DNA of 64,000 nt from a bacterium (Candidatus Blackallbacteria) CG13_big_fil_rev_8_21_14_2_50_49_14 (GTDB lineage Bacteria; Cyanobacteriota; Sericytochromatia; UBA7694): NCBI GenBank assembly GCA_002783405.1, contig PFGG01000009.1, positions 1-64,000 on the forward strand. Direction: 5' to 3'. Shown piece after piece: positions 25,000 through 44,399 of the stretch. The translations under genes were made by a program, and so were the position numbers. Under the pieces are notes generated by a model that was given only the letters and a program-made list of their open reading frames with translations, was not told where the DNA came from and ran no database searches. Position 1 is the first letter of the stretch. Every line of letters starts with the position of its first letter.

Positions 25000-25002
25000 G
25001 CA

Positions 25003-25824
25003 TTGCAGACTGAGTTAAGTACTTATCTAGAGTTCGCACTTGAAGCCGCCCGATTGGGCGGCTCTCAGTTGCTTGATTACCGGGGCCACCTGTCTAAAAT
25101 TCGCAGCAAAAGCAGCAGTGGTGATTTGGTGACGGAAGCAGATGAGGCTTCTGAAGCCACTATTTTAGACTATCTGAAGCAAAATCTGCCGCAACATGCC
25201 CTGCTCGCCGAAGAATCAGGTCGTCAGGAAACTGGCAGTGATTGGCTTTGGGCGATTGATCCTCTGGATGGCACGCTGAATTATGCCCACAATTTGCCTT
25301 TTTTCTGTGTCTCACTGGGCCTGCTTTATCAGCAAAAGCCCGTATTGGGAGTCATTTACGCTCCCGTGCTGGCCGAAACCTTTGCCGCTTATCAGGGCGG
25401 GGGAGCCACCCTGAATGGGGATATCTTTCAGGTCTCACCTGTTGAGACCCTTTCACAAAGCTTTCTGGCGACAGGTTTTCCCTATCGCAAAGCCAGTCTC
25501 GAAGACAATAATTACGCTGAGTTCTGCTATTTGGCTGATCAGGTTCAGGATATCCGTCGCCCGGGTTCTGCCGCTTTGGATTTGGCCTATGTAGCCTGCG
25601 GGCGTTTTGATGGCTTTTGGGAACGTCATCTCAATGCCTGGGATATTTGTGCGGGAGCTGTTTTAGTTCAGGAAGCCGGTGGAAAAATCAGCAATTACCA
25701 GGAAGGGACGCTCGATCCTTTTTCTGGCGAAATTCTTGCCAGCAATGGCCGGATACACACTCAAATGGCTTCCCGTCTGCAAGCCGTTCAATCCTCTGGC
25801 CTACATTTAAAAGTGACCATTTGA
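25003..25824 (+). CDS. suhB: Inositol-1-monophosphatase family phosphatase
   Basis: The 273-residue enzyme has all metal-binding motifs of the family: EADEASEATI, LAEESG, then WAIDPLDGTLNYAH and WDICAGAVLVQEAGG. These proteins hydrolyse inositol monophosphate, and some act on fructose-1,6-bisphosphate or PAP, so the substrate is not certain. The start is TTG at 25003, directly after the upstream stop, with AAGGG eight bases ahead; no ATG lies near. The 3' end overlaps the convergent LON-domain gene by 18 nt. The suhB symbol reflects family membership only. Confidence 0.92.
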   Translation: MQTELSTYLEFALEAARLGGSQLLDYRGHLSKIRSKSSSGDLVTEADEASEATILDYLKQNLPQHALLAEESGRQETGSDWLWAIDPLDGTLNYAHNLPFFCVSLGLLYQQKPVLGVIYAPVLAETFAAYQGGGATLNGDIFQVSPVETLSQSFLATGFPYRKASLEDNNYAEFCYLADQVQDIRRPGSAALDLAYVACGRFDGFWERHLNAWDICAGAVLVQEAGGKISNYQEGTLDPFSGEILASNGRIHTQMASRLQAVQSSGLHLKVTI

Positions 25825-26436
25825 GCGGACCCTGCGCTGAAACTCTTTGGCCTTTTCTAAACGGGGCAGGAGTTCTTTAAAATAGTTACAGAGACGTTCT
25901 AAGCGTTCGTTTTCGCTGCGACTTTCCAAAAGTTCCAATTTGATTTCAGTTTCCAGACTGAGCAGGGCGGCCAGTTGGAAACTGATCGCATCGGTGTCAA
26001 GACTCCATTCTGCGTCAGAGCCAATCAGACTGAGAAAGGTTTGGTAATTTTCAAGCAATTTTGTTTTTAAGTCGGGATCCGGTATTTCGCTGGGATTCAG
26101 ATCTTCAAAATAGCGAATTTTTGCCTGAAGATAAGAGCGGGAATGATCCAATTCCAAGACATGAAAACGCTGACTGCCCTGGGTCATGATATCCAGTTGA
26201 CCATCTGCGTACTTGTGCAAGATTTGATGCACAATCACCGTACAGCCTGTTTCGTGTAATTTCTGAGGATGGGCGAAATTGATGCCGATCGGAAGGTACT
26301 GATTGCTGCCTGCGACCGGTGCGCAGTCGGCGATCATTTGCTTGTAGCGGGGTTCGAAGATATGCAGAGGAACAGGTTCTCCAGGCAGGGGAACGATTCC
26401 CAGTGGAAAAATTGGGATCAGGATTTCAGAAGACAT
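25807..26436 (-). CDS. LON substrate-binding domain protein (no protease domain)
   Basis: The 209-residue product corresponds to the N-terminal substrate-binding domain of Lon protease. PIFPLGIVPLPGEPVPLHIFEPRYKQMI is read as the opening two strands and helix of the fold (positions about 6-33), followed by GCTVIVHQI and a long C-terminal helix. It has neither ATPase nor protease domain. Such free LON domains are widespread and of unclear function, perhaps in protein quality control. The ATG at 26436 has AAGGA seven bases upstream. A longer frame starting at 26499 is not supported. A TATACT box at 26474-26469 may be its -10 element. Confidence 0.9.
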   Translation of the reverse strand: MSSEILIPIFPLGIVPLPGEPVPLHIFEPRYKQMIADCAPVAGSNQYLPIGINFAHPQKLHETGCTVIVHQILHKYADGQLDIMTQGSQRFHVLELDHSRSYLQAKIRYFEDLNPSEIPDPDLKTKLLENYQTFLSLIGSDAEWSLDTDAISFQLAALLSLETEIKLELLESRSENERLERLCNYFKELLPRLEKAKEFQRRVRSNGHF

Positions 26437-26519
26437 GCCAGTTTCCTTGTGGTGATTCCATTTTTGACAGTATACACGAACTGTTTGGTTTGAAAGCAAG
26501 ACCGATCAAATCGTTCACA

Positions 26520-28826
26520 CTATCGGGCCCAGTCGGGTTCATTTTCACCAGGAAAGAGACAGTCTCTCCAGCCTGGCAAGAATTTACCCAGATCCCGCGC
26601 CAGGAGCGCCCGGCTGTCCCAATCAGGATCGGGCAGGGCCACTTCCAGAGGATCGATGGTATTCAAACGGCAGGGGTGGGTATTGCCTGTTTCCATCGCA
26701 AGCAAATCCCGTTTCCAAAAGCTGAGGGCCCGTGCCTGCCAAAGATAGCCATAGCGATAGGCTGTTGGGTTGAGTCCCCAACCTGCGATGCGCTCAGGAT
26801 CGGTACGGTAGTGGCTTTCCCTCTGTTTGACGGTTGTTTGTGCTCGGTTGAGCTGGGTTTTGGCGAACGCCAGCCAATGGGCTGCCTCTTGTTTTTGCCC
26901 GACCTGACTGAGGGCTGCATGTTCATACTCTGCAAGTTTAAAGCCCGCACGCAAGGCGTTGATTTCAAGACCCGCCACGAATTCTGCCGTAAATTCTGAT
27001 GGATACTGTCTTTGCAAATTTTGGGCTTCTCTTGCCAAGGCTTTAAATTCGCTGTGCATTTGCGCTAAGAGCGGGCGAATCTCACGCAGATAAGTCTGGA
27101 GTGCCTGGGGCTGTTTGCGCAGATCTTCGGGTTCCAGCCGATCCGGTTGGGTTTGAAATCCTTTGAGAATCCCTGATTTTCGAGCCAAGGCGGCAATTTC
27201 GCTCCAGGCATCCACACCTGCCAGATAGGCCATGCCCGTATGTTTTTCAATTTCTCTGGGGTTTTTTCCCTGAAGCTGGCCCAAGACCAACAAACGGTAT
27301 TGGCTGGCAATGGTTTTTTCGAGCAGTTCAGTCCAGGCCATTTGCCCTGCTCCAGCGGGTTGCAGGGCATCAAACAAGAGAAAATGTAAGGCTTCGGCTT
27401 CTGAGCTTTTACCAAAATCAGGGCTCCAAGCTGCACGGCTGCTGATCCGGTCATTCAGCCAATAGCCCCATTCAAAGCCACTTGAAAAAAGCATTTGGCC
27501 CTGAATATCCAGGGCTGGCCCTGGGTTGCCGGGCAGACGAGAGCCTGCCAAGATCCAGATATCATGCAGGCGTCTGGCGGCATAGACCGGTAAAAACAAA
27601 GGCTGGTTGATATCGTAATTGACCCAATAGCTGCTCTCAGGAAACCAAAGCAAAGGGCGTCTACCAGCTTCCTGACGGATAAACTGATGCATCTGCGAAA
27701 AATCTTGGTGTCCATAGGTGGGAGCCGGGTCGTCCAAACTGTAGATTTGAACGGTATGGGGCATGATGCCAAGTCGGGGATCTGCGTAATGGGGCAAAAA
27801 ATTAAAATTGAGCGGGGCACCCGTTTGCGGATCCCGGTAGCGCTCAGAGACTTGGCCGCTTGAAATATGGATTTTGGTATAGAAATGTTTGTGATACTGG
27901 TCTTCGAGGTGGGCGGTTGCCGTATTGAGCCAATCCAGCATCAATTGATCTCCGGCATTGTGAAACTCACTCAAGCCCAGTTCTGTGCTTACAAAATCAA
28001 AGCCAGCTTCCATCAGCCAATCAAGATTTTCACGAATCTGTTCCTGTTCCTGACGCAGTTCACCAAAACGGGTCACCAGCCTCCAGGCATTTTGCTGCCC
28101 CAAAGCCAGCGGGACGTCGATACCGGCTTTGATGCCCCAGCGATGGGCCTGTTCTACCAAGCTTTTCAGGCGTTTCTGTCGCAAAGTACTGCGAGAAAAT
28201 CCCTGCCAAGGCCCTTTTTCAAGCAAGACCCATTCCACTTCATTTTGGCGGTTGGCGATCAACCATTCCAAATAGCTTTCCCATTCCCCCCGCAGGCTTT
28301 CCCAACCTTGGGGGTCGCTGGGGCCACCAGGGCCCCAGCCATTCAAAACATGGGTCATTTCCAGGGGATGCATGGTGTGATGCACCAAACCTCTTTGGGG
28401 CCAGAAAGGTTTTTCTCTGTGCTGTTCTCCCGCTGAGGGCAGATTCAGCTGGGGGGGCGAGAGCACCTGAAAAGGATGATTGAAACGAAAACCCAGACGC
28501 TCGAGCAGGGCATAACTTCCGTAAAGCAGGCCCCGGTTGGTGGGATCGTCTTTTTCTACCTTGCCCCAGACCTGAAGTGTGAGCCCTTCAGGGGTCTTTT
28601 GGGCCTGCCATAAAAATTCTTCTTCAGCCAGATCAACAGGTGCTGGGGAGGTTCCCAACTCCAGCCTGAGTTGAACAGGCACTTCAATTTTCTCGAAATG
28701 CTGGACAATGCGTTGGCAGATTTCTGAGGGCATGCTCTGGCCACAGGCGATATGAATGGCTTGGGCCTCAGCTTTGAGCGGGGTGAGCAGGGTCAGGGCC
28801 AGAAGGGCTGCGCTCCACTTAAACAT
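26520..28826 (-). CDS. Secreted glycoside-hydrolase-like protein (TIM-barrel type), unknown specificity
   Basis: The 768-residue protein begins with a signal peptide (MFKWSAALLALTLLTPLKAEA, then a likely cleavage after AQA). Residues about 20-140 resemble the N-terminal domain seen before GH20 and GH67 catalytic barrels (NRGLLYGSYALLERLGFRF). A barrel-like region follows with HRWGIKAGIDVPLA, FDFVSTELGLSEFHN, KIHISSG and PLLWFPESSYW. Glu in STELG and in FPESS are possible catalytic residues. The C-terminal 250 residues are helical. It probably acts in the periplasm or outside the cell on a glycan. Family assignment is uncertain. The ATG at 28826 has an AGGA seven bases ahead. Confidence 0.72.
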   Translation of the reverse strand: MFKWSAALLALTLLTPLKAEAQAIHIACGQSMPSEICQRIVQHFEKIEVPVQLRLELGTSPAPVDLAEEEFLWQAQKTPEGLTLQVWGKVEKDDPTNRGLLYGSYALLERLGFRFNHPFQVLSPPQLNLPSAGEQHREKPFWPQRGLVHHTMHPLEMTHVLNGWGPGGPSDPQGWESLRGEWESYLEWLIANRQNEVEWVLLEKGPWQGFSRSTLRQKRLKSLVEQAHRWGIKAGIDVPLALGQQNAWRLVTRFGELRQEQEQIRENLDWLMEAGFDFVSTELGLSEFHNAGDQLMLDWLNTATAHLEDQYHKHFYTKIHISSGQVSERYRDPQTGAPLNFNFLPHYADPRLGIMPHTVQIYSLDDPAPTYGHQDFSQMHQFIRQEAGRRPLLWFPESSYWVNYDINQPLFLPVYAARRLHDIWILAGSRLPGNPGPALDIQGQMLFSSGFEWGYWLNDRISSRAAWSPDFGKSSEAEALHFLLFDALQPAGAGQMAWTELLEKTIASQYRLLVLGQLQGKNPREIEKHTGMAYLAGVDAWSEIAALARKSGILKGFQTQPDRLEPEDLRKQPQALQTYLREIRPLLAQMHSEFKALAREAQNLQRQYPSEFTAEFVAGLEINALRAGFKLAEYEHAALSQVGQKQEAAHWLAFAKTQLNRAQTTVKQRESHYRTDPERIAGWGLNPTAYRYGYLWQARALSFWKRDLLAMETGNTHPCRLNTIDPLEVALPDPDWDSRALLARDLGKFLPGWRDCLFPGENEPDWAR

Positions 28827-28941
28827 CTTTTTTTCCTGGATCAATCGTGATAATTCAGAATGACACGGATGAAAGACCCACGACAAGCTTGCGTTGCTCT
28901 GAATTGTAGTGGGCTGGACCTTGGCTGTGAGAGATGTACCC

Positions 28942-28968
28942 TTGTCAGCGCTTGGGCTCAGTTAGAAT
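28942..28968 (+). promoter_or_regulatory. Putative promoter of the nucleotidyltransferase-like gene
   Basis: TTGTCA (28942-28947) and TAGAAT (28963-28968) are separated by 15 nt, slightly short of ideal, 31 nt before the ATG at 29000. GGAG nine bases before the ATG serves as ribosome-binding site. Confidence 0.4.
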
Positions 28969-28999
28969 AGAAGCAAGTTAGTACCTGGAGCACGCCCGC

Positions 29000-30388
29000 A
29001 TGAAAGGCCTTCTCAACTGCCGTTTACCTGATCCCCCCTTTGATCAATCCCTGCCTTTCCCGATTTGGTTGGCTCCGGTTTGTGAGAAACCGGTTTTGGA
29101 GTATTATTTTGACCTTTTTCTCTATTTGGGGGTGACAGAGATTTTACTTGTCGATTATTTACAGACCCCAGAAATTTCTGCTCGCTATGGCACGGGAGCT
29201 GCCTGGGGCATTCAGCTCAGTTATATTGAAGGTTTATCGGGCGAGGTTTTGCCTGAAACCTTAGAGCGTTTAAAGCATCATCTTCAGGATGATTTGCTTG
29301 TGGTGGATGGCCCTCTTTTTCCCTTTTATGATCGTCAGACCCTGAAAACCCTTCAACTTCCCCGTGAAACGGGGATTTACAGTTTGAATCAAAGGCATTT
29401 GGACCTCACCGACAATATTCTTTTGGTTTCGCATCAACTCCTGAATACCTTGGTGAGTGAGAATCGTTTTGATGCCTGGATCCAGGTACCTTTGGACTAC
29501 CATCCCGAGGTGCGTTTTCCCGTTATTCCGCTGCACAGTCTGGCTGCCTATCTTCAGATCAATCTTGAAATTCTGGGGCGTGCTGAGCGTTTTGAACTTC
29601 AGGCGGTGCAGGAGCCCGATAAAATCTGGAAAGGCAGAAATGTTCATGTTCAGACTGAAGCGCAGCTGGGCTCGCCTCTTTGGTTGGGAACAGATACGGT
29701 TCTCGGAGCGGGTGCGCAGGTTTCACGCAGTCTTTTAACCGGACACGTCAGAGTGGAAGATGAGACCCAGCTTCAAGAATGTTTGGTGATTGGCCCCAGC
29801 TATTTGCAAGGCGTGAATCTGCAACGCAAGTTTGTGATTGGGCAAGAGATTCTTCACCCTGCCAGCGGCCAAAGAGAGCGCTTGCAGATTGAGTGGGCTC
29901 AGCAAAATCGACTTCAGGAGCCCGCTGCACGCTTAGAAAAACTCAGTTGGGAAAAAGACTGGATAGAGAATTTTTTACGCAATCGGCGCAAGGCCTATGC
30001 CTTTTTAGAACGCTTTGCACGTTTTCAGAACAAGCGATTTTATGCGAATGCCCAGGGCCAACTCTTGGAGCTGCCGGTGTTTAAACAGCGCAAACAGCCA
30101 GCTCTGCCTGAAAAATGGTTTTACCATTACCAATTGGACAAGGTGCCTTGGTATGAGGCGGTTCTGAAGGGCGAGCTTTGGTTGGTGGGCAACCAATTGC
30201 AGGAAGAAGGCCCCGCAGGATGGGAAAGGGTGAATCAACTGCCTGTCTATGCCCCTGGCATTTATGCCTATGCCAATTTGCCCGAGCTGGCCCATCTGCC
30301 AATGAATGAACTCTATTATTGCAATGCTGCCAGCCTGGATTTAGATCGCTGGATTTTGGAGCAAAGCTTAAAAGACCTAAATGCTTGA
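29000..30388 (+). CDS. Degenerate sugar-nucleotidyltransferase-like protein with left-handed beta-helix segment
   Basis: The 462-residue protein starts like sugar-phosphate nucleotidyltransferases. It has a KPVLEYYFDLFLYLGVTEILLV stretch at about 30-51, DDLLVVDGPLF, then a hexapeptide-like region (LGSPLWLGTDTVLGAGAQV; VRVEDETQLQECLVIG). The initial GGxGTRLxPLT nucleotide loop is absent, so catalysis is doubtful. The C-terminal 170 residues end in LPELAHLPMNELYYC and LDLDRWILEQ, which recalls the tail of sugar-transferase partners. It may be a scaffold or regulator of polysaccharide assembly. Its last 12 nt overlap the convergent gene. Confidence 0.7.
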   Translation: MKGLLNCRLPDPPFDQSLPFPIWLAPVCEKPVLEYYFDLFLYLGVTEILLVDYLQTPEISARYGTGAAWGIQLSYIEGLSGEVLPETLERLKHHLQDDLLVVDGPLFPFYDRQTLKTLQLPRETGIYSLNQRHLDLTDNILLVSHQLLNTLVSENRFDAWIQVPLDYHPEVRFPVIPLHSLAAYLQINLEILGRAERFELQAVQEPDKIWKGRNVHVQTEAQLGSPLWLGTDTVLGAGAQVSRSLLTGHVRVEDETQLQECLVIGPSYLQGVNLQRKFVIGQEILHPASGQRERLQIEWAQQNRLQEPAARLEKLSWEKDWIENFLRNRRKAYAFLERFARFQNKRFYANAQGQLLELPVFKQRKQPALPEKWFYHYQLDKVPWYEAVLKGELWLVGNQLQEEGPAGWERVNQLPVYAPGIYAYANLPELAHLPMNELYYCNAASLDLDRWILEQSLKDLNA

Positions 30389-30778
30389 ACGGCTGCGCAT
30401 TTTGGCGTTCATGGCGTATTTATTATAGGCCATTTGCATAATATCCGTGAAAATCACACGCATCAGACCTTCCTGTAAAACGGTAAAGGTATCCTGAATC
30501 ATGTGAGAATCAACTTCAAAAGCGGATTGAATCCGGCTGTATTCTTTGAGAAACTGGTTGATTTTGATCTGACGCAAAAGGCCGTCCTGATCGACGAGCG
30601 TGATAAAATTGGGCCCCAAAAGTTTATGCGCATCTTCTGACCAAAAAGCCTTTTCGGTCAAAACCAGATCGCGACGACGGGGTTGTTTGATCGTAAAGAT
30701 CATCGGTGCGAAATTGAGCATGGCCTGGGTTTTCATTTTAAACTCAATCGATTCTACGATAAAATTTTCAGCTGACAT
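30377..30778 (-). CDS. Conserved-looking small protein, unknown function
   Basis: I do not recognise this 133-residue protein. It has a beta-rich first half (FIVESIEFKMKTQAML, MIFTIKQPRRRDLVL), a central LVDQDGLLRQIKI and a helical end rich in Met (MIQDTF, MRVIFTDIMQMAYNKYAMNAKMRSR). There is no signal peptide or membrane helix. The ATG at 30778 follows AGGGG at seven bases, which makes it a credible gene. It converges on and overlaps the upstream neighbour by 12 nt, and it is divergent from the amylase gene, sharing a 191-nt control region. Confidence 0.72.
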   Translation of the reverse strand: MSAENFIVESIEFKMKTQAMLNFAPMIFTIKQPRRRDLVLTEKAFWSEDAHKLLGPNFITLVDQDGLLRQIKINQFLKEYSRIQSAFEVDSHMIQDTFTVLQEGLMRVIFTDIMQMAYNKYAMNAKMRSRSSI

Positions 30779-30893
30779 CGCAGGCCCCTTTATTACATTT
30801 TTGATGCTTTTATCATATCATACCTTGAGTACACTCTCTGAGCGGCCCTGGCGAAGAGGATAGTGCCGATTGAATTGTTAAATAATTTAAATT

Positions 30894-30928
30894 TTAAGAA
30901 AGTTTTTCTTAAGAACACGTGATATTAT
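30894..30928 (+). promoter_or_regulatory. Amylase promoter with palindromic operator candidate
   Basis: TGATATTAT (30920-30928) is an extended -10 element placed about 42 nt before the amylase ATG. Where the -35 would be, TTAAGAAA and TTTCTTAA (30894-30901 and 30905-30912) form a perfect 8-bp inverted repeat with a 3-nt spacer. A regulator bound there would control the gene. GGAGGT at 30961-30966 is the ribosome-binding site. Confidence 0.55.
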
Positions 30929-30969
30929 CCATGTGGTCCCGTGTGTCTTTCACCGAATCTGGAGGTCCT

Positions 30970-32580
30970 ATGCGAAAAATCCATCCCTTTAAAACCGCTT
31001 TGAGTACCACTTTGGCATCTGCTCTGCTCTTTTCAGGTTGCAGTATGCTGCCTGGCAATGCCCGGAGTGTACAGAATCTTGCTCCTGCCCCCCTGAACCG
31101 CCTGGCTGCCAATGCCGCGCCTGTCCGCGCACAGAGTAAATCGACTGATCTGCGCAGCGCCAGCCGTATCTGGCAAGACGAAATTATCTATTTCGTCTTT
31201 ACCGATCGGTTCTCCAACGGCGATCGCAGCAACGATTTCAATGTTCAGAACAATCCTTGGGCCTACCATGGCGGGGATCTTCAAGGGGTTATCAATAAGC
31301 TCGATTATATTAAGGATTTGGGGGCCACAGCGATTTGGCTGACGCCCATTATCGACAATCGAGACAATGGCTTTGTCGCCGATTTTGGCGGAGGACACAA
31401 ACAGGAAATCTGGGGCTATCACGGCTATTGGTTTAAAGACTTTTATAAGATAGATGAGCATTTGGGCGATATGGCCAAGTTGAAACAATTGGTCGCTGAA
31501 GCGCATCGCCGGGGCATTAAAATCCTTTTGGATATTGTCGCCAACCATACCGATTATGATCATCCTTTTGCAGTGCAGGGCAAAGCCAAGGGCAGCAAAT
31601 ACTATAATTGGTTCAACCACAACGGTGTGATCAAAGACTGGAACAACCAGTGGTGGGTTGAAAATGGCGAACTGGCAGAATTGCCTGACTTGAATCAAAG
31701 CAACCCAGAAACAGCCCGATATATCATTGATGCGATGAAATGGTGGATTACCCAGTCGGGTGTGGATGGTTTCCGGATTGATACGGTCAAACACGTACCC
31801 CGCAGTTTCTGGCAACAATTTAACCGTGAGATACGTGCCTTTGCTGGGAATGACTTCCTGCTCTTGGGTGAGATTTACACGGGCTACCCTGAATTCCAGG
31901 CAGATTATCTACGCGAGGGCATGCATTCTGCTTTTGACTTCCCACTTTATTACGCCATCAAAGACGCCTTGGGTGGGGGCCAAAGCATGCGCCGTTTGGG
32001 TGAAATTTTTGATAAAGACGGGGTCTATCCCGACGCTTCTTTGCTTTCGCCTTTTATCGACAACCATGATGTGCCCCGCTTTGTACATGAAGCCTCGGGT
32101 GATAAACGCAAACGCCTGATGTTGAGTATTGCTTTTATCATGTCAATTCGTGGCTTGCCCATGCTCTATTACGGCACTGAAGTCGGCTTGCCGGGTGGGC
32201 CTGATCCTGACAACCGTCGGGACATGGATTTTAACCGTGACAGTGGTTTACGGGATTATGTGAAATTCATGACCAATCTGCGCAAACAAAACCGGGCCAT
32301 GCGTCGCGGTCGTCAGCTCGAAATGTGGAAAGACGAACAGGTCTATGGTTTTACCCGTCTGACAGAAAATGCGGCTGAAGAGATGATTGCCGTTTTCAAC
32401 AATAGCGAACAGCCCCAAACCCGTCAAATTCCCCTGCGTGCTGAAAGCCCGAACAAGGCAAGCCAGAATCGCTTGGTGAATCTGCTCAATCCGCAGGAAA
32501 CCCTTCAAATTCAGGGGGGAGCGATCCAGGTCACTGTGCCCCCGCTCTCTGCTGCGATTTATCGTTTGAGCGGCAAATAA
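30970..32580 (+). CDS. Alpha-amylase family (GH13) lipoprotein
   Basis: The 536-residue enzyme has a lipoprotein signal (ALLFSGC), so it is anchored in the periplasm or on the surface. The GH13 regions are clear: DRFSNGDRSND, DIVANHTDYD, then GFRIDTVKHV (nucleophile Asp), LLGEIYTG (acid/base Glu) and FIDNHDVPRF (third Asp). A C-terminal beta domain follows (EEMIAVFNNSEQP). It degrades starch, glycogen or maltodextrins; subfamily members include alpha-amylases and cyclomaltodextrinases. The ATG at 30970 follows GGAGGT. An upstream in-frame ATG at 30919 would start before the signal peptide and is rejected. A strong terminator follows. Confidence 0.96.
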   Translation: MRKIHPFKTALSTTLASALLFSGCSMLPGNARSVQNLAPAPLNRLAANAAPVRAQSKSTDLRSASRIWQDEIIYFVFTDRFSNGDRSNDFNVQNNPWAYHGGDLQGVINKLDYIKDLGATAIWLTPIIDNRDNGFVADFGGGHKQEIWGYHGYWFKDFYKIDEHLGDMAKLKQLVAEAHRRGIKILLDIVANHTDYDHPFAVQGKAKGSKYYNWFNHNGVIKDWNNQWWVENGELAELPDLNQSNPETARYIIDAMKWWITQSGVDGFRIDTVKHVPRSFWQQFNREIRAFAGNDFLLLGEIYTGYPEFQADYLREGMHSAFDFPLYYAIKDALGGGQSMRRLGEIFDKDGVYPDASLLSPFIDNHDVPRFVHEASGDKRKRLMLSIAFIMSIRGLPMLYYGTEVGLPGGPDPDNRRDMDFNRDSGLRDYVKFMTNLRKQNRAMRRGRQLEMWKDEQVYGFTRLTENAAEEMIAVFNNSEQPQTRQIPLRAESPNKASQNRLVNLLNPQETLQIQGGAIQVTVPPLSAAIYRLSGK

Positions 32581-32598
32581 AGCCAAAATGGTATTGTG

Positions 32599-32640
32599 AA
32601 CCCGCTAAGCACTCTCAGCAGCGCTTAGCGGGTTCTTTTG
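32599..32640 (+). terminator. Rho-independent terminator after amylase
   Basis: AACCCGCTAAGC (32599-32610) pairs perfectly with GCTTAGCGGGTT (32623-32634), followed by CTTTTG. The 12-bp stem ends the amylase transcript and may also act on the opposite strand. Confidence 0.9.
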
Positions 32641-32706
32641 ATTGGAAGATCCTTTGATCCAATCAAAACTTTGTTTGGAAATATCAGACCCACACGTGAT
32701 AGTGGT

Positions 32707-35700
32707 TTAAGTATGCTGTGAACTGGGAAGATAGGATTCCATTTGGGTGAGATTTTCCCCCAATCGTTTAGACAGAATTTCCAAGAGACTGCGCGCAAAA
32801 ACGGGATAGGTTTCTACCACGTCGATAAAATCTTCTCTTCCGATCCGAAGCAGTTCGCAATTGCTGAGCGTTCTGACGCTTCCCAATCGGGGAGAGGCAT
32901 TGAGAATTTCCACTTCTCCGAAACATTCTCCAGTTCCCAGACGGGTGACTTCGCGCCCATTGCGTTCTACGATGACTTCGCCTTTGTTGATGACATAAAA
33001 GGCATCGCCGGGTGAACCCTGTTTAAAGACGCGGGTATTGACTGGCAATAAAATTTCTTCGGCAGTATGGGCTACGGGCGTCAGTTCTTCTGCGCGAAAC
33101 TGATTGAAGAGCTGGGTTTTCTTTAATAAAAAGACTTTGTCTAAGAGTTGAAACACGTTTTTTTCCTCCTCAGTACTGGGGGCCGGGTTGCGAACCCAAG
33201 TGGCGATTCGATTCAGCCAAAGATCCTCTTGAATCAGGGTGCTGCTCCACCAGGACTGGCCAATATAAGCGTCAATAAAATCACGATCCCGGCCCAGTGC
33301 CAAGCGTTTTTCCATTGGAATTTCATCCATCAGCGGCAGGGTCAGTTCGACCAGATCCCGGCTCAGGGTATAGTTTAAGACCTCTAAACTCAAGGCCCGG
33401 TAGTGGGGGGCCTGGCTTTTGAAGTTCAGATAGGCCTTGTACATTTCATTGGGATTATAGAGCAGGGCAAAGAGTTTAAACAGCATATTCTGCACAAAAA
33501 GGATGCGCTGTTTGAGTTCCTGCTGTAAAAGTGGGGCCCGCTCACGGTTGATGGGATTGCTCTGCAGCAGGGAAAGCAGAAAATAATAGGAATATCCAAA
33601 GCGAAACTCACGTTGGATCTGGTAATGAATAATGTGGTTGTATTCTGAAAGATTAAACATGAGCTTGCGGCGCAGGTTTGTGCAGGCTTTAAGTGCTTGG
33701 TATTTGTGTCGGACATGGGGTTCTTGTAAAATTTCAAGCAGGCTGGCAATGGCCTGGGGCGTTTCAAAACTGCTCAGCAGTCGGATGAGTTCTTGGCGAT
33801 AGTCATGGCTGCTGGTATTTTTTTTAAATTCTTTCACGGCCTGGGGCAGGATCAATTCGGCGGGAAAGTGTTGCAGACTGTACAAGGCTTCACGGGTGGT
33901 GCGACGATCTTCAAGTGCTTTGAAGAGTTGCGGCATGAGCTTGGGTTCAGGGGTGAGGCCTGCGGCGTTTAAACACACTTTCCTGATTTCAACAGCTTCG
34001 GAAGCCAACAGTTCGGCAAAATCTTTGCGGAAATAGCGAATCCCGATCGCCCCCATAATACTGGCTGCTGCACAGAGTTCTTCCTGTTTTTGACTGCCCA
34101 TTAAACTTTTTAAATGTTCTGCTCCTGCCAGGACGCCTTCAATGCCCCCCCGTGTAAACAGAAAGACGGTAGCTTCAGCCTGTACCGCCAGATGTGTGTC
34201 TTTGAGGTGTTCAATCGCGATGGCGTTGATCGACTCATCTCCCATATGCTGCAAGGCCTGAAAACAGGCTTGGCGAACCCTTCCCACCCGCTCGTGGCGC
34301 AGCAGGTGTAAAACGATATCCACCAGATCTGGATTGGCTTGATGGCGAAGAATATGCATGGCCGTTTCGCGTACATAGGGATTTTCGTGTTCTATCAGAG
34401 GCAGAAGTTGATCCTGAGGAAGTCGCAAGGCATGGGTTTTCAATAATTCGAGCGAAAACAGCACCATTTCTGGATTGTCCTGGGCCAGGCTTTCTTCAAT
34501 TCGGGCACTGGAAAGTTGAATGGGAGACTCGTTGCTTTCTTCATCTACCAAAAGGCGTTTGCGCATCAGGGATTCATGCAAGCTTTGGGTATAGGGTTTT
34601 TTCAGTTCAAGACTGATCAGAATGCCCGCGAGGGCAAAGGTCAGGCTTAAAATTGCCAGGCCAAGCGTATTGCCCTGCATGACAAAAATGGCCAAGCTGA
34701 CCAAGGGGACTGTGGCCAGCCCCAGAATGCCATTGACTGTGAGTTTGAGCTGGCGGCGGGTAGTGGAATCAAAAGGCAGATAGACCAATTCTGTGGCGGT
34801 TTTAAAGACTGAATTGCGTGTAATCTGTTCAAAGAATTTGGTGGCTGTAATCGAAAACAATGAAGGCCTGAAAATAAAATAACCCATGCCCATGCTCAAA
34901 GCGACAGGGGTCAGGGCCATGCCGAATACCACGCCATAGGCGTTGATCAGACGGTTTTCGACAAGGGCTTGGATAATCAGCACGCAGATATTGGTGATCG
35001 CAAGATAAGTGCCCATATAGGCGGTAATTTCGTTCTGACTAAAATGCCCTCGCAATTGCACCTGCAGATGATAATCTGCGATCGTCGAAGAGGCTCTGAC
35101 GCTGATCAGAATCAAGATCATCAAGAGCAGCAAACGATTTCCCAGGATGCCTTTCATGAATTCTTGCAGTTGTTCCTGCAAGGAGTTTTGTTCTGCACTT
35201 TGTGTGCTTGCATTTGCTCCAGGATGTGTCAGGCTGTATCTTTGCAGGATCAGGCTCAGTCCTGAAAAGACACTCAAAAGAAGAACACAGATAAACAGCA
35301 GATTTTCGGTGCCTAAGCTGCTGGCCAGTGAAAGGCTGATCCAACCCCCACTGATGGCGCCAATCGTGCCGCCAAAGCCAATCAACGGAAAAAGACGTTT
35401 GGCTTTGCGGCTGTCGAGGCAATCCCCATACAGGCTCCAGGTTTGAAGCAAGGTCAAACCCAGAAACGTATCACAGCAAATCGGCAGCACAAAGCGTATC
35501 CAAGCCGCTTTGCTGAGCAAGAGAAAACGCCCGCTCAACAGAATCCCAATAAAGATCAGGCCCAAACCGATGCTTTCATATTTTCTGTCAATTTTTCCCA
35601 AAACAAAGCGGGAATAGACCACCGAGAGCACAAAGGTTAAAATCGATTCTGCTAGAAAATACCAGGGGTACCAACTGGAGTCAAAGGCACCTAAAAATAA

Positions 35701-35847
35701 GCCGGTATTCAAACTGCGTTGCAGCGATTGGTTACACAGTGCGACTGAAAAATGCAGCAGCATGAGCAAGAGCAGGCCCCATTCGTTGCTACGTACACCC
35801 ACAAAAGCATTGACGCGCCGAAGTCCCTGTTTCAAAAGACTACTCAA
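32707..35847 (-). CDS. MFS/nucleotide-translocase-like transporter fused to HEAT repeats and a cyclic-nucleotide-binding domain
   Basis: This 1046-residue fusion has three parts. Residues about 20-415 form about 10-12 membrane helices, with YGDCLDSRKAKRLFPLIG in the first half, which recalls ATP/ADP-translocase-like MFS carriers. Residues about 440-860 are helical HEAT-type repeats (ENPYVRETAMHILRHQANPD and similar). Residues about 920-1035 are a cNMP-binding domain; its phosphate-binding cassette FGEVEILNASPRLG keeps Glu978 and Arg987, so cyclic nucleotide binding is plausible. The start is a TTG whose TTGA overlaps the stop of the lactonase-like gene, so the two are translationally coupled. 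It may be a nucleotide-gated carrier or a membrane sensor that no longer transports. The substrate is unknown. Confidence 0.85.
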   Translation of the reverse strand: MSSLLKQGLRRVNAFVGVRSNEWGLLLLMLLHFSVALCNQSLQRSLNTGLFLGAFDSSWYPWYFLAESILTFVLSVVYSRFVLGKIDRKYESIGLGLIFIGILLSGRFLLLSKAAWIRFVLPICCDTFLGLTLLQTWSLYGDCLDSRKAKRLFPLIGFGGTIGAISGGWISLSLASSLGTENLLFICVLLLSVFSGLSLILQRYSLTHPGANASTQSAEQNSLQEQLQEFMKGILGNRLLLLMILILISVRASSTIADYHLQVQLRGHFSQNEITAYMGTYLAITNICVLIIQALVENRLINAYGVVFGMALTPVALSMGMGYFIFRPSLFSITATKFFEQITRNSVFKTATELVYLPFDSTTRRQLKLTVNGILGLATVPLVSLAIFVMQGNTLGLAILSLTFALAGILISLELKKPYTQSLHESLMRKRLLVDEESNESPIQLSSARIEESLAQDNPEMVLFSLELLKTHALRLPQDQLLPLIEHENPYVRETAMHILRHQANPDLVDIVLHLLRHERVGRVRQACFQALQHMGDESINAIAIEHLKDTHLAVQAEATVFLFTRGGIEGVLAGAEHLKSLMGSQKQEELCAAASIMGAIGIRYFRKDFAELLASEAVEIRKVCLNAAGLTPEPKLMPQLFKALEDRRTTREALYSLQHFPAELILPQAVKEFKKNTSSHDYRQELIRLLSSFETPQAIASLLEILQEPHVRHKYQALKACTNLRRKLMFNLSEYNHIIHYQIQREFRFGYSYYFLLSLLQSNPINRERAPLLQQELKQRILFVQNMLFKLFALLYNPNEMYKAYLNFKSQAPHYRALSLEVLNYTLSRDLVELTLPLMDEIPMEKRLALGRDRDFIDAYIGQSWWSSTLIQEDLWLNRIATWVRNPAPSTEEEKNVFQLLDKVFLLKKTQLFNQFRAEELTPVAHTAEEILLPVNTRVFKQGSPGDAFYVINKGEVIVERNGREVTRLGTGECFGEVEILNASPRLGSVRTLSNCELLRIGREDFIDVVETYPVFARSLLEILSKRLGENLTQMESYLPSSQHT

Positions 35848-36671
35848 GGTTGGCCTGCCTGCTCTTTAAAGGCCTGTGGGTCATGTGAGCACAGAATTTG
35901 TACGTCGGGGTGCTGACGGGACAAGAGTTGCAATTTGAGGAGCGTATTGCCCCATTCAAAGGCATTCCAAGGCTCGAGAACCTGTAGCAGCAAGAGGCCA
36001 GGGGAACAGTTTATTCCTGGAAAAGACAATTGGCCCCTCTCAAAAAAAGCATCCCCGGCATGAAGTAACCAACCTGTTGGGGTTTGAATCGCAATACCAC
36101 TGTGCCCGCGGGTATGGCCACGCAGCGGAATCAGTAGAATTTCCTCTGGCAATCCCCGTAAACTGCGTACAGCATTGAGGCCTTTCCACGTCTCCCCTAG
36201 GGGCTCATAGGTTTCCCACTGCACGTCATGTTTCCATTGGCGGGGCAAATAGCGCCAGATTTCAGCAAGAGAGGGCTGGCTGACCGCTCCCTGGTATTCG
36301 TTAAGGTGAAGATGAACACGGGCCTTCGGAAAGTCAGCAAGGCCACCGGCATGGTCAAGATCCAGATGGGTGAGCACAATATGTCTGACCTCTTCAGGTG
36401 CAAAACCCAATGCCTTGATTTGAGCCAAGGCGGTTTCCTGGGCGTGGTAGCGTGGGGGAGAAAAGGTATCCAGCAAAGGGCTGACAAAACCCAGGCGTAA
36501 ATCTTCCCGTCCCAATCCTGTATCGATCAGCACCAATCCAGCTTCTGTTTCAAGCAAGAGACAATGGCAAACCAGCATTCCAGGTTTCAGGAGAGAACCC
36601 CTGCCATTGAAAAGTTTTTGGCTGAGTGGGCACAAGGTGCCACAATTGAGATGGTGTATTTTGAGGGCCAT
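35844..36671 (-). CDS. MBL-fold metallohydrolase (lactonase-like)
   Basis: A 275-residue metallo-beta-lactamase-fold protein. It opens with the strand KIHHLNCGTLCP, then LLLETEAGLVLIDTGLG, the zinc motif THLDLDHAGG (HxDxDH form) and further metal ligands in RGHTRGHSGI and LHAGDAFF. The family includes N-acyl-homoserine lactonases and related hydrolases; quorum quenching is possible but not shown. Two other in-frame ATGs (36680, 36713) exist; 36671 fits the family N-terminus best, though its AGGG lies only 3 nt ahead. It overlaps the transporter-HEAT-cNMP gene by 4 nt. Confidence 0.88.
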   Translation of the reverse strand: MALKIHHLNCGTLCPLSQKLFNGRGSLLKPGMLVCHCLLLETEAGLVLIDTGLGREDLRLGFVSPLLDTFSPPRYHAQETALAQIKALGFAPEEVRHIVLTHLDLDHAGGLADFPKARVHLHLNEYQGAVSQPSLAEIWRYLPRQWKHDVQWETYEPLGETWKGLNAVRSLRGLPEEILLIPLRGHTRGHSGIAIQTPTGWLLHAGDAFFERGQLSFPGINCSPGLLLLQVLEPWNAFEWGNTLLKLQLLSRQHPDVQILCSHDPQAFKEQAGQP

Positions 36672-36811
36672 GCGCCCTATCATACCATGGCAAAAATCCT
36701 TATTCCAGCCCATTTTCAGCTGAATAGGCCTTGGACGTTTTTGTAAGGGTTTTTCAGGCTGGAAGTGAAAAAACTAAATAAGGAGAGTTAATCCTTGCTT
36801 GGGTTCCCTGT

Positions 36812-36817
36812 TATAAT
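36812..36817 (+). promoter_or_regulatory. -10 box before the TolB-like lipoprotein gene
   Basis: A perfect TATAAT lies here without a good -35. The start of transcription would be near 36824. That leaves almost no leader for an ATG at 36829, but a normal 26-nt leader with AAGGAG (36835-36840) for the TTG at 36850. The box therefore helps to decide the translation start. Confidence 0.5.
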
Positions 36818-36849
36818 ACAGCCAGTTTATGCTAAAGGAGTTTCCTCAA

Positions 36850-37746
36850 TTGAAACGCATTTTTGCTTTGAGTTTATCTGCTTCGCTCCTCTTCTCTGCC
36901 TTGATGGGCTGTGCACCAAAATATCCAGGAGATGATTCTCCTTTCATGGGTAAAATTCTATTGACCCAGGTGGTCGATAACAATGAAGAGATCTTTCTGA
37001 TGAATGCGGATGGCAGTGGAAAGGTCAATCTCAGTAAAAATGCAGCTGCGGATACCATGCCGCGTTGGTCAATGGATCGCTCCAAGATCGTTTTTGTTTC
37101 CGATCGCGATGGCAATCCAGAAATCTATAGCATGGATGCCAATGGCCAGAATCAGCGTCGTTTGACCGACCATCCCGATCGCGATCTCTATCCCGATTTT
37201 GCCCCTGATGGCAAACACATTACCTTTACCTCTGAACGCGATGGCAATGAAGAGGTTTATATCATGAACGTTGATGGGTCTCAACAAAAAAATATCAGCA
37301 ACCATCCTGCTGGAGACGCTGTTTCCCGTTGGTCGCCCGATGGCAAAACCCTGCTCTTTGTCTCTGATCGGGATGGCAATAACGAGTTGTACACGATTGG
37401 CATTGATGGCAAAGGGGCTCAGAACCTGACCCGTCATCAAGGACAGGATTACGGCGGCACTTGGTCAATTGATGGCAGCATGATTGCTTTTGCTTCCAGT
37501 CGGGATGCAGACTCCAATGAAATTTATATCATGCAGGCTGATGGCTCTAAAATTCGCCGTCTCACCACCGATCAACTTGCAAAATTTGGACCGGTTTTCT
37601 CACGGGATATGAAACGGATTCTTTTCTCAGGTGCAAAGAGCCAAAGCAGTTCCACGCAATATGATTTGTTCCAAATTAATCTGGATGGTTCGGGTTTGCG
37701 CAATCTTACCAATTCTCCCACCGACTCGAGCGAAGGGGACTGGTAG
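36850..37746 (+). CDS. TolB-like WD40/PD40 beta-propeller lipoprotein
   Basis: From the TTG at 36850 this is a 298-residue lipoprotein with signal KRIFALSLSASLLFSALMGC. Five or six PD40 repeats follow, each of the type DxxPxWSxDGxxIxFxSDRDGNxEIYxM and joined by NxTxxP turns. They are seen at about residues 40, 84, 127, 170, 213 and 258 of the longer frame. The fold is that of the TolB C-terminal propeller. No TolB N-terminal domain or Tol-Pal gene is nearby, so it is not TolB itself. It probably binds a protein or glycan in the periplasm. The alternative ATG at 36829 is less likely because the AAGGAG site and the signal peptide both favour the TTG. Confidence 0.88.
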   Translation: MKRIFALSLSASLLFSALMGCAPKYPGDDSPFMGKILLTQVVDNNEEIFLMNADGSGKVNLSKNAAADTMPRWSMDRSKIVFVSDRDGNPEIYSMDANGQNQRRLTDHPDRDLYPDFAPDGKHITFTSERDGNEEVYIMNVDGSQQKNISNHPAGDAVSRWSPDGKTLLFVSDRDGNNELYTIGIDGKGAQNLTRHQGQDYGGTWSIDGSMIAFASSRDADSNEIYIMQADGSKIRRLTTDQLAKFGPVFSRDMKRILFSGAKSQSSSTQYDLFQINLDGSGLRNLTNSPTDSSEGDW

Positions 37747-37775
37747 GGCGTTTCTACCTGTAAATTTTTGCTCAC

Positions 37776-37833
37776 AAGCTTCTGGGCTCGGGGTGCCTTG
37801 ACCCCATGCTCAGAAGCTTGGACTGGGTTTTTG
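37776..37833 (+). terminator. Long hairpin, probable terminator
   Basis: AAGCTTCTGGGC pairs with GCTCAGAAGCTT (one G-T pair), enclosing an inner GGGGT/ACCCC stem, all within 37776-37819. A TTTTT run follows at 37828-37832, 8 nt after the stem. The distance makes it less typical, but its place behind the lipoprotein gene fits a terminator. Confidence 0.6.
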
Positions 37834-38067
37834 TACTTCAAGTTTTGGCACGGTCTGAACCTACTTAATTGTCAGCAGGATAAGAGGAGTGCTATGCTTT
37901 AAGGGCATGCATTTTATTCATATTTTCAGCTTTAACCCGCAAATCAGGGTTTATCTTGTCCCTCCCCAGACGGATTCTCTCGCTGGGACGTTTTCTGTCT
38001 CTCGATTAAGGAACAGATTTTAAGCATGCCATTAGCGCTTTAACAATAATAACTTCCATGGAACCCT
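37834..38067 (+). promoter_or_regulatory. Leader region of the DEAD-box gene
   Basis: With the hairpin before it, this completes a 321-nt gene-free stretch between the TolB-like gene and the helicase. It contains a small hairpin (AACCC and GGGTT around 37937-37955) and the complementary words GGGCATGC (about 37903) and GCATGCC (about 38025), which could close a long-range structure. A structured leader would suit a cold-responsive helicase, but this is only inference. No recognisable riboswitch is seen. Confidence 0.3.
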
Positions 38068-40176
38068 ATGAAATTTTCAGATTTTGATTTACACCCCCCC
38101 TTGCTTCAAGCACTCGATGAAATGGGCTATACAGGCCCCACTCCCATTCAAGAAAAAACGATTCCAACGCTGCTTGAAGGCCGTGATGTCATTGGTTGTG
38201 CCCAAACGGGTACCGGTAAAACTGCGGCTTTTGCCTTGCCTGTTTTGCAAAAGATTAAACCGGGTGCCAGCGCGCATCCCCAGGCTTTGATTATTACGCC
38301 GACACGTGAGTTGGCTGAACAGATTTTTCAGGCCATTCAAGACTATACCCGTTTCATGCCAGTACGTTGTGTTGCTGTGTATGGGGGCGTGCCTTCCCGA
38401 ACTCAGGAATCAGCACTCAAAAAAGGTGTAGATATTGTCGTTGCGACCCCTGGCCGTTTGTTGGATTTGCTGCAAAAACCTTCCTTGCGCCTCTACGACG
38501 TGCGTTTTCTGATTTTAGATGAGGCGGATCGGATGCTGGACATGGGCTTTATACCCGATGTGGAGAATATTGTCAGCTATGTTCCCCGCACCCGGCAAAC
38601 CCTGTTATTTTCTGCCACCATGCCCCCTGAAATTGAAAAATTGGCACGCCGTGTGACCCGCACCCAATCTGCAGAGATGATCGTGATTGGCGAACGCAGT
38701 TCTTCAGCGGATACGGTGACACAGTGGATTTGCAAAGTGGGCGATCGCGAAAAAGAAAGACTCTTGATTTCGCTGCTCAAACAACCCGAAATGACGTCTA
38801 CGATTGTGTTTACCCGTACCAAGCTGGGGTGTGCCGAGCTGAGCCGACGTCTGGAACAGGCGGGTATTTCAGCCATGGCGATTCACTCCAATCTTTCGCA
38901 GGTTCAACGCCAGAATGCCTTGGAACGTTTTAAGCGTGGGGAGTGTGAAATCCTGGTTGCTACCGATATCGCGGCCCGAGGTCTGGATATTGAGCATATT
39001 TCCCATGTCGTCAATTTTGATACCCCGACCCATCCTGAAGATTATGTGCACCGCGTCGGCAGAACAGGCCGCGCTCTGGCCAAAGGAGAGGCGTATACCT
39101 TTGTTTCTCCTGCCGAAATCCGGCATCTGAAAAATATCGAAAAACTGATCAATCGCACCTTGCCTGAATGGTCAGACCAACGTGAAACCCCAAAATTGGA
39201 AACGGAAAAAACCGTTAGTCAGGGAAGTGAGCGCGGGAAAACCACTCACAAAAAATCAGCAGAGACCAAGCCTTCTCAAAAAGCGCAAGAAACAAGGTCT
39301 GTTTCGCCTAAAAAAGAGAGACCGCTCAAAAATACGGGCAAAGCAAAATCTCAGCGCTCGACTGTTGAAGAGGGCGCAGCGCTTCAGGAGAAGAAAAACA
39401 GCACGGCAGCTCGTTCAAAAAAACAGGTGCCTCAGGCAGAGCCTGAAACACCCAAACTGATTGAAGCGGGGAAGGCCCCTGCTCGGCAATTAAAGGCGGG
39501 CAAGGATCCTGAAGCGCAAAAGAAACTCAAACCTGGACCTGCGCGTGACACGCATAAAAAATTGCATCCAGGATCAGAGCCCAAGCTTTTACTTGAAACC
39601 TCGAGTGAACCCGCTCTTTTGCCCTCAACTCAGATTCCAAAACCTGCTTCTGCCAAGAAGTCCCGGAATGCTCAACACCTCCGCAAGCCTGTAAAGGCTG
39701 AGTTGTCCGTGGTTGATCAGGTAAAACATAAAGAAAACCTTGCTGAAAAGGCCCGTCCCACCAAACGCACACCAGAACCCAGCGATTTTAGAGAGCCTTC
39801 CCCTTCAGTAAAATCTGAAAGAGAAGTCGAGCAGAATGTTTCGACACAGACCTTGGGGCCTGCTGCTCAAGAATTGAACCGTCGCAGACAGGCCTCTGAA
39901 CGCGCCCAGAAGCGTACGTCTGTTTCGCGTTTGACGGCCCATACCCAGGCTTCCGCCTCAACCGCAGAACCGCGCTCTGCCTATGGAGAATCAAAACATC
40001 TTTCTCCTCAAGTTTCAGAGCTTTCCCGCCAAACGGTGCGCCAGGAAAAGGCGCCTGTGGCGAATCCTCAAAAAGACTCCTATGCGGCAAGAATGGCGAA
40101 ACAATCGCCTCATTCCAGTCATGCTCCGCGCTTCTTCCGCAGCGAAGAGGATGTGGATTGGTTAGATGAGGAGTAA
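38068..40176 (+). CDS. DEAD-box RNA helicase with long basic low-complexity tail
   Basis: The 702-residue protein has a complete helicase core in residues 1-370. It shows the F and Q motif (TPIQEKTIP), AQTGTGKT (45-52), PTRELAEQ, ATPGR, then DEAD (151-154), SAT, ARGLDIEH and HRVGRTGR (328-335). The core is closest to the RhlE group. The last 330 residues are unusual: Lys, Ser, Pro, Glu and Gln rich, highly charged and without predicted order, with a Trp-containing acidic end (VDWLDEE). Such tails bind RNA or drive condensates in other RhlE-like helicases. It likely serves ribosome assembly or RNA decay. It is monocistronic, with a 321-nt region upstream. Confidence 0.95.
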   Translation: MKFSDFDLHPPLLQALDEMGYTGPTPIQEKTIPTLLEGRDVIGCAQTGTGKTAAFALPVLQKIKPGASAHPQALIITPTRELAEQIFQAIQDYTRFMPVRCVAVYGGVPSRTQESALKKGVDIVVATPGRLLDLLQKPSLRLYDVRFLILDEADRMLDMGFIPDVENIVSYVPRTRQTLLFSATMPPEIEKLARRVTRTQSAEMIVIGERSSSADTVTQWICKVGDREKERLLISLLKQPEMTSTIVFTRTKLGCAELSRRLEQAGISAMAIHSNLSQVQRQNALERFKRGECEILVATDIAARGLDIEHISHVVNFDTPTHPEDYVHRVGRTGRALAKGEAYTFVSPAEIRHLKNIEKLINRTLPEWSDQRETPKLETEKTVSQGSERGKTTHKKSAETKPSQKAQETRSVSPKKERPLKNTGKAKSQRSTVEEGAALQEKKNSTAARSKKQVPQAEPETPKLIEAGKAPARQLKAGKDPEAQKKLKPGPARDTHKKLHPGSEPKLLLETSSEPALLPSTQIPKPASAKKSRNAQHLRKPVKAELSVVDQVKHKENLAEKARPTKRTPEPSDFREPSPSVKSEREVEQNVSTQTLGPAAQELNRRRQASERAQKRTSVSRLTAHTQASASTAEPRSAYGESKHLSPQVSELSRQTVRQEKAPVANPQKDSYAARMAKQSPHSSHAPRFFRSEEDVDWLDEE

Positions 40177-40195
40177 ATCCGCATTGTCTCTGCTC

Positions 40196-40225
40196 TTTGC
40201 ATAATCTTTGCAGGGATTCTATACT
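40196..40225 (+). promoter_or_regulatory. Putative promoter of the multi-propeller gene
   Basis: TTTGCA (40196-40201) and TATACT (40220-40225) are spaced by 18 nt, giving a transcription start near 40233 and a leader of about 50 nt before the ATG at 40285. Confidence 0.5.
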
Positions 40226-40284
40226 AGTAAGATGGGAAAACGCCTTATCTTATCAGAAGAATGCGGTTTAGAACGTTAAATTAA

Positions 40285-43200
40285 ATGTCGATAGCCAGTC
40301 CTGAAGACCTTAAATTGATCGAAAAGTTAATTCAACGTGGCTTGGTTGAACGTGCCACTTTGGTGGGCATGCTTGAGGCTCAGAAAAAAGCGTTTGAAGA
40401 GTCGCACCGTACTTTGTCAGGGACGCTTTATCAATTGGAGCCAGAAACAGGGCTTTTGCGGGTCAGTGATTTGGCTTCGAAACAGGAGCTTGCTGTTTAT
40501 CCGCTTTCTGCAAGTTTAACGGGTTCACAGTGGGCCCCCTGGGCAACCCATCGTCTCTTGGTAAAAGAAGACGATGGCACTCAACTTTTTTCTGTTCCTC
40601 TTGAAAAAGAGGCGACAGCTGGTTTGGTTCTGTCGCGTGAAGGCGCTTGGGTTTTGACCCAGGAAGGGCTGCAGGCAGATTGGCTTGGTTATGGTCGTAG
40701 CAGTCTTTTTCCGGGAAACTTACGCGACAGAAATCAAACAGGACCTTGGGATTTATTCTTTGCTGCAGATGATTCACTTTTTGCCTTGGCCGATCGTGGC
40801 GCGGGGACTGTGGATGTCTTTTCAACTCAAAACCATCATAAACTTGCCCATTTTCAAGTGCGGCCTGCGGGCAGTCATTCAGGGCTGAACGTGGCCTTTG
40901 ATTTGCGTGATCAACGTTTGATCATGACAGACAATACCTCAACGGTTTTGCATGTGGGGAATATCGCCACGGGTCAAATTGAGCAGATCAAGCCGGGTTT
41001 GGGCATGTTGGGCAATCTGGTCATGGCCCCTGATTTTGAACACCTCTATCTATTAACTTTGAAGCCCGCTCAAGAATTGCTTTATTTAAAAATTTCGACC
41101 TGGTCTGTCAGCAAAAGAATTCCATTGAAAGGAGATCTCTTTCGAAATCAAAGTGAAGTTCCCAGCGATTTACTCCAGCTTTCTCCGAATCAAAGGTTCT
41201 TGCTGGTGATGACTTTCCAAAATGCTCCTGATCCCCTCACCCCTGTTGTCTCGGTGATTGATACAGCACAGGTGAAAACACTGCGTCGCTATGCCTTGAA
41301 AGACGGTTCAAGACCCTGTCAGATTTTATTTGCCCGACCCAACCCACTTCAATCCTATTCCCAAAAAAATCTCAAGCAAATGCTCTTAGAGTCTGGGTTG
41401 GTCAATGAGCAGACTTTGTTCTCCCTAGAGCAGCCAGAAATTGAAATGATTCCGCCCCCTGTACTGCATCCTTCAGATTTGCATCAACCCCAAGAATTTG
41501 TGCCTCCGCCTGTTCTGAGCCCCCCGGTGGTGGCCCGAAAGCCTATGCCTGGACCCGTTGCTCCGGCTCCCGCGCAAGCTGAGCCGCTTCCCCCTGCTCC
41601 GCCTGAGCCTGAAGCTGTAAAGGCACCGTCAAAACCCAGTGCCTCAGAAATCAGCCTGGGCCCTGAAACAGAAAGCCTGATCGCAAAACTTTTGGCTGAA
41701 TATTTTAAGCTGGAAACGGGCCTGGAAATCATGGACTTTCCCCGTCCTTGGAAGTTACTGCAGGAAGAAGCTGTCCGGATTCGTCCGATTTTGGAAAAAT
41801 CCTTTGATGTGCCTGTGGAACTTGAGAAACTGCATGAGGGGCGCAGTCTGAAAATGACCTTGCGCCGCAGGGCGGTTGTGCTCAGACAGGAGCAGGAAAG
41901 CTGGTTAAAAGAACATCCTGATCCGATCGTGCCTTTGCAATGTCCGCTTTGTCAGCAGAATCTGATGAATCATTGGGAATGTCAGGTCTGTGGCTATGAG
42001 CTTGAAAACGCCTTGCGCAGTTTTAAGGCTCGGATTGCTTCTGCTGAGGCGACGACTGAACTTGAAAATGGCAATTTTGTTTTGCCCGATCCACAGGGCT
42101 TGCGCATCCTTGAACTGAATTCCCGCAAAGAAATTGTCTGGCAATTGGATCCTGATCAGCTTTCCTGTGAGTTTCCCAGAGATGCAGTGCGTATGCCGGA
42201 TGAACGCCTTTTGGTAGCAGACAGCCACCGCCATCAAATTTATGAAGTGGGATTAAAGGGCAAAATTCATTGGTCGATGAAAACCTTTGAATCAGAAACC
42301 CATCGCTTGAAAAATCCTGTAAAAATCAGTTGGCGGCGTACCTCCTCAGGTGAGCTGCGTTATTTGATTGTGGATCAGGGCAATCACCGCGTACTTGAAA
42401 TTGATCATGAAAGTCAGATTTGCTGGAGCTTTGGGGAACAGGGCGTGTCAGGAGACGATACTGCGCATTTGGATTCTCCGACGGATCTTCAATTTACCCC
42501 TGATCGCACCTGGTTGATTACCGATGCGAACAATGGCAGGGTTTTGGAATTGGGGGAAGAAGGTGAACTTGAACAGATTTTTGAGCGCGAGTCCTATGGT
42601 TTGCTGCGACCGGTTTGCGCCCAACGTCTTTGGAATGGGCATACGTTGATTGTCGATGCTGAAGCCTATCAGATTCTGGAATTGGATCCCTTGGGGGTGG
42701 TCAAAGAGCGGATTACTTACTATAAAACAGGCATGCCCACTGAGCTGCGCTTGCTCGAGCCCTCCCGCTTGATTCGTTTGCCCAATCAAGATCTTATACT
42801 CTATAACGATCGCAAGGCGATACAAATCTTGCCGCTGCAAAAAAAATTAATTTGGTTTTCAACCCTTGATAAACTTCAGCTTGAAGCTGCCAAACGATCG
42901 GAGTATAAGCCTGAATCAGCAGAAGCCCCTCCCCTTCAGAGCCAAGAGTCTCCAACCCGTGAAATTCCTGTTCAGGCAGCAGTTGAACCGCTTGTGCCAA
43001 CTCCCGCAGCCCCTAAAGATGCTGGGGCCAAGTTTCGCAGAGTTTCAGCCCAAGAACGGCTTCAGGCTTTAATTCAACGCCCAACTGCACCCAAGGCACA
43101 TTTGGAGAGTTTTGATCATTCTGTGGTCTATACCCGCGAGGGAGCAAGCCTGACTGAACATTCTCCCTATTTAATTGATCAGCGCCACAACGGGATTGTC

Positions 43201-44343: not shown

Positions 44344-44353
44344 ATATTCTTAA

Positions 44354-44387: not shown

Positions 44388-44399
44388 GAATCAGAATGA

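Follow-up and report, generated by a model that had tools for sequence, protein, structure and literature searches.

The protein encoded at nt 32707–35847 of the window (the whole stretch of 64,000 nt that was analysed) is a Sericytochromatia member of a known family, the NTT-HEAT-cNBD fusions, in which an NTT-type carrier is joined to a HEAT-repeat array and a cyclic-nucleotide-binding domain (cNBD). The assignment rests on its Pfam domains, on a profile match to NTT1 (E = 1e-22) and on the NTT1 structures matched by its AlphaFold model. Two aspects are new, both of them modest: a gene for an MBL-fold hydrolase that is facultatively coupled to the fusion gene through a TTGA overlap, and the nucleotide-binding lysines that are apparently missing in this branch. 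The window genome (G000) groups with Candidatus Sericytochromatia MAGs and Cyanobacteria bacterium UBA7694, its nearest named relatives, and the host is a non-photosynthetic relative of cyanobacteria. Feature coordinates are given in Table 1.

Table 1. Coordinates of the fusion gene, its domains and neighbouring features in the window.
Feature	Position (nt)	Strand	Remarks
NTT-HEAT-cNBD fusion protein	32707–35847	−	1046 aa, TTG start
NTT/TLC (MFS-fold) carrier domain, ~aa 1–433	34549–35847	−	Pfam TLC, 9j3n/9j3j profile match, AlphaFold, Foldseek
HEAT-repeat region, ~aa 445–880	33208–34515	−	Pfam core at aa 480–551, plus further repeats
Cyclic-nucleotide-binding domain, ~aa 905–1030	32758–33135	−	PF00027; PKG/PKA cNBD matches in PDB
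Phosphate-binding cassette, Glu978 to Arg987	32887–32916	−	inside FGEVEILNASPRLGS
TTGA, overlap of carrier TTG start with MBL TGA stop	35844–35847	−	common to G017 (another genus)
MBL-fold hydrolase, 275 aa	35844–36671	−	AHL-lactonase-like fold; longest ORF reaches 36713
HLDLDH metal-site motif	36351–36368	−	HxDxDH instead of HxHxDH
PD40/TolB-like gene	36829–37746	+	divergent; neighbour common to G015

Domain layout and family membership

All three Pfam domains score above their cut-offs within a single ORF: TLC (PF03219, 33.8 bits against a cut-off of 21, aa 137–325), HEAT_2 (61.9 bits in two stretches C-terminal to the carrier, the best at aa 480–551) and, at the C-terminus of the same chain, cNMP_binding (PF00027, 64.2 bits, aa 937–1014). 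The order of carrier, HEAT array and cNMP-binding domain proposed in a preliminary description of this DNA is thus borne out. The accompanying claim that this pairing lacks a named counterpart was mistaken, as the layout is that of a family published in 2017 (PMC5381601). Its authors, Major, Embley and Williams, described fusions of both kinds, NTT-HEAT and NTT-HEAT-cNBD, from Cyanobacteria, Chlamydiae and oomycetes. In their analysis the NTT-HEAT fusions were monophyletic, and the cNBD was in some cases encoded by a gene of its own directly downstream. According to their proposal, NTT-mediated uptake of ATP might be tuned by cAMP, the functional interplay of the domains being unknown at that time (PMC5381601); a search of the literature returned no later functional paper on NTT-HEAT proteins. 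The window protein resembles the described fusions in its three domains, their order and the proposed control by cAMP, but differs from them in having, in two Sericytochromatia genera, an MBL gene coupled upstream.

A survey of the phylum found NTT-HEAT frames of about 1000 aa in 13 genomes of other classes, which presumably belong to photosynthetic organisms. The carrier domain of the window protein is about 20% identical to theirs, and the carrier and HEAT parts align with them end to end (hhalign probability 99.9%, E = 1.8e-33, 826 columns), which supports common descent with other NTT-HEAT proteins, the comparison covering cyanobacterial proteins. A separate small cNBD-type ORF adjoins the NTT-HEAT gene in 10 of the 13 loci, a split layout that was judged from ORF starts and confirmed by Pfam for one pair, and infC often lies on the other side (13 stretches, likewise judged from ORF starts). 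These split loci differ from the window locus in their unfused cNBD, in the lack of an MBL gene and in their cassette, which reads PRSAS as against PRLAT or PRLGS. Within the class, the TLC scores of some orthologues are slightly under the Pfam cut-off or absent. A contig scan with the single fusion protein gave no matches, and a scan with an alignment returned Sericytochromatia loci only, so that the comparison of fused members is confined to this class. In a tree (midpoint rooted for drawing only), the five orthologues group in a single clade that excludes two paralogues.

A second, divergent NTT-HEAT-cNBD paralogue is present in two related genera (L035:3652-6858 and L036:4954-8115); the copy at L035 is flanked by two genes for apparent alpha/beta hydrolases. 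The window genome also carries three NTT/MFS-like paralogues with a single domain, each of about 520 aa (G000:C21:84405-85949, G000:C64:94533-96032 and G000:C9:77076-78575; L043, L044 and L042), two of which pass the Pfam TLC cut-off; the C64 and C9 copies are 44–45% identical to that on C21.

Carrier fold and nucleotide-binding residues

The likeness of the N-terminal part to ATP/ADP translocases, suggested earlier, holds up in both sequence profile and predicted fold. A profile of the carrier domain built from 19 loci matches Chlamydia pneumoniae NTT1 (9j3n, E = 1e-22) and AtNTT1 (9j3j, E = 1.8e-20), and all further matches have E > 0.3. The AlphaFold model is all-helical with an MFS-type fold (pLDDT 84, pTM 0.82), and its four best matches in the PDB by Foldseek are NTT1 structures (TM-scores 0.58–0.71). 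Since these outrank other MFS folds, a generic MFS carrier was rejected. The two NTT1 proteins (PDB 9j3j–9j3o) share the carrier fold and the TLC family with the window protein, but carry no HEAT or cNBD part and possess two binding lysines that the window protein apparently lacks.

In AtNTT1, ADP binding has been linked to K155, ATP binding to K527 and translocation to E245. Residue numbers were inferred from the 9j3j chain, where an offset of 84 lets E245 and E385 fall on Glu and K527 on Lys; K155 was located by way of the DTK motif in the C. pneumoniae protein. Two MAFFT alignments pair K155 with N47 and K527 with V380 of the window protein, and no Lys was seen in it near the K527-equivalent position. 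E385 is matched by an acidic residue, D258, while E245 falls opposite L133, with D126 seven residues upstream, in a part where the register is ambiguous. Both lysines are likewise absent from the NTT-HEAT proteins of other cyanobacteria, so that the nucleotide-binding lysines of NTT1 appear, from these alignments, to be missing in the window protein and in cyanobacterial NTT-HEAT proteins. The carrier may therefore not exchange ATP and ADP in the manner of NTT1; the change at K155 is not decisive by itself, because it is also altered in some microsporidian NTTs. Several polar or charged transmembrane residues (D145, R147, R151, E297, E340 and K349) are invariant across genera.

The cyclic-nucleotide-binding domain and the MBL neighbour

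Glu978 and Arg987, which had been named as intact cassette residues, are found at those places (FGEVE from 976, PRLGS from 986) and are conserved in the orthologues. Across 12 cNBDs the Glu is invariant and the Arg is kept in 11; it is lost in one paralogue (G014:C633; L035). The retained residues, together with 11 matches to class III cyclase domains in the window genome, make a cyclic-nucleotide ligand plausible. Binding of cAMP or cGMP is uncertain because the surroundings of the cassette differ from those of cyanobacterial cNBDs (FGEVE and PRLGS as against FGEMS/A and PRSAS), and these altered surroundings would also allow another ligand, or no ligand at all. The fusion query matches 29 places in the same genome, mostly in the cNMP-binding part alone, which along with the cyclase domains suggests a rich cyclic-nucleotide signalling in this lineage.

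The TTG start of the fusion overlaps the stop of the MBL gene as previously described, the MBL ORF ending at 35844 and the TTG lying at 35847. An ATG of the same-genus orthologue aligns with this TTG, and the MBL-linked orthologue of another genus likewise has a TTG start overlapping a TGA (CCTTGAAC). The start of the MBL gene at 36671 (MALKIHH) also agrees with its homologues. No Rfam elements were found in nt 25000–45000, and scans for promoters and terminators did no better than on shuffled sequences. Further out, nt 26520–28886 (minus strand) encode a protein of 788 aa that has a signal-like stretch at its N-terminus and matches no Pfam family at E = 0.001, and nt 40285–44343 (plus strand) a protein of 1352 aa with NHL-type beta-propeller repeats and a C-terminal match to a P2 response-regulator-binding domain.

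The preliminary description looked to the MBL gene staying next to the fusion in relatives, and this expectation failed in most of them: the two are adjacent in two of the five Sericytochromatia orthologues (the window and G017) and a homologue was found in none of 13 NTT-HEAT stretches from other cyanobacterial classes. In both linked genomes the MBL gene lies directly upstream and the TTG start falls within its TGA stop. The same-genus orthologue (G015, 71% identical) has no MBL homologue anywhere in its genome at 1e-20, and permissive tblastn showed no trace of one at the locus; a PD40/TolB-like gene directly precedes the fusion there, and in the window that same gene lies beyond the MBL gene. 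No homologue was found in G016, and in G014 it is on another contig beside other genes. Absences in G014, G016 and G017 weigh less than that in G015, as these assemblies are fragmented. Four more distant genomes carry the MBL gene, and a full-length NTT-HEAT-cNBD orthologue was not found in them. A constant partnership was rejected on the evidence of G015 and the other-class loci. What stands of the proposed coupling is the overlap kept in a second genus; most relatives have no MBL gene beside theirs. The coupling is real but facultative, and the MBL gene is an accessory rather than a constant component of the system. The distribution is most simply read as a coupling that arose long ago in part of the family and was later lost or moved elsewhere.

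The model of the MBL protein (pLDDT 86) is closest in the PDB to the AHL lactonases AiiA and AhlX (TM-scores of about 0.7–0.8), and GHxxGH, GDA and a late His are present as in AiiA, AhlX and AttM. The earlier label 'lactonase-like' therefore holds for the fold but not for the HxHxDH signature of the MBL superfamily and its lactonases, which is replaced by HxDxDH in all seven homologues across the class. The best curated lactonase model scores 55 bits, far under its NCBIfam cut-off of 390. The substitution possibly reflects an altered metal site in this MBL subfamily, and the evidence on the protein extends no further than a lactonase-like fold. An assignment as a class II cyclic-nucleotide phosphodiesterase was rejected since there is no such Pfam match.

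Possible function of the fusion protein

Ligand binding, gating, the substrate and any pathway common to carrier and hydrolase we infer as follows. The MFS-type NTT/TLC carrier would sit in the membrane, and the HEAT array, probably cytoplasmic, would connect it to the cNMP-binding domain; this domain most likely has a cyclic nucleotide as its ligand and alters carrier activity via the HEAT linker. What the carrier moves may be some anionic metabolite, or else a nucleotide that is not ATP/ADP; the MBL hydrolase would act as an accessory, TTGA-coupled in some lineages. In its general form, a carrier of known family set by a cyclic nucleotide through a HEAT linker and accompanied by an accessory hydrolase, this is on balance the probable reading. 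The narrower claim that NTT-HEAT(-cNBD) proteins are cyclic-nucleotide-gated carriers for something other than ATP/ADP, and that the coupled HxDxDH hydrolase processes their substrate in some Sericytochromatia, is put forward as speculative and quite doubtful.

A strict exchanger of the NTT1 type for ATP/ADP or other nucleotides, whose flux cAMP would adjust to the cell's energy state, is what Major et al. (2017; PMC5381601) hypothesised; it would be in line with the ATP/ADP translocators being the nearest solved relatives and with the acidic D258 at the E385 position. It is nonetheless unlikely given N47 and V380 in place of the two lysines, their absence from other cyanobacterial NTT-HEAT proteins too, and the lack of a clear counterpart to E245. 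It is similarly improbable that carrier and MBL protein form one functional unit, in which a lactone or ester, or the product of one, is moved by the carrier and either removed or produced by the hydrolase. Such a unit is favoured by the TTGA overlap, shared by two genera whose proteins are about 55% identical, and by the nearness of the MBL model to AHL lactonases; the orthologue in the same genus does without the hydrolase, two other orthologues lack the adjacency, and the hydrolase occurs in the four genomes in which the search turned up no full-length fusion. The NTT1 binding lysines, which are apparently gone, and the large conserved non-membrane part would also suit a carrier domain that no longer transports and serves as a membrane receptor or anchor passing a signal via the HEAT and cNBD parts, but the invariant transmembrane residues and the well-predicted MFS fold make this still less likely.

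If the carrier is indeed controlled by a cyclic nucleotide, it would represent an uncommon kind of regulation for an MFS protein. The NTT fusion family is widespread, yet by 2017 no cyanobacterial member had been characterised (PMC5381601). The missing lysines give a concrete reason to consider substrates other than ATP/ADP, and the hydrolase coupled to the carrier in two genera hints at where these might be sought.
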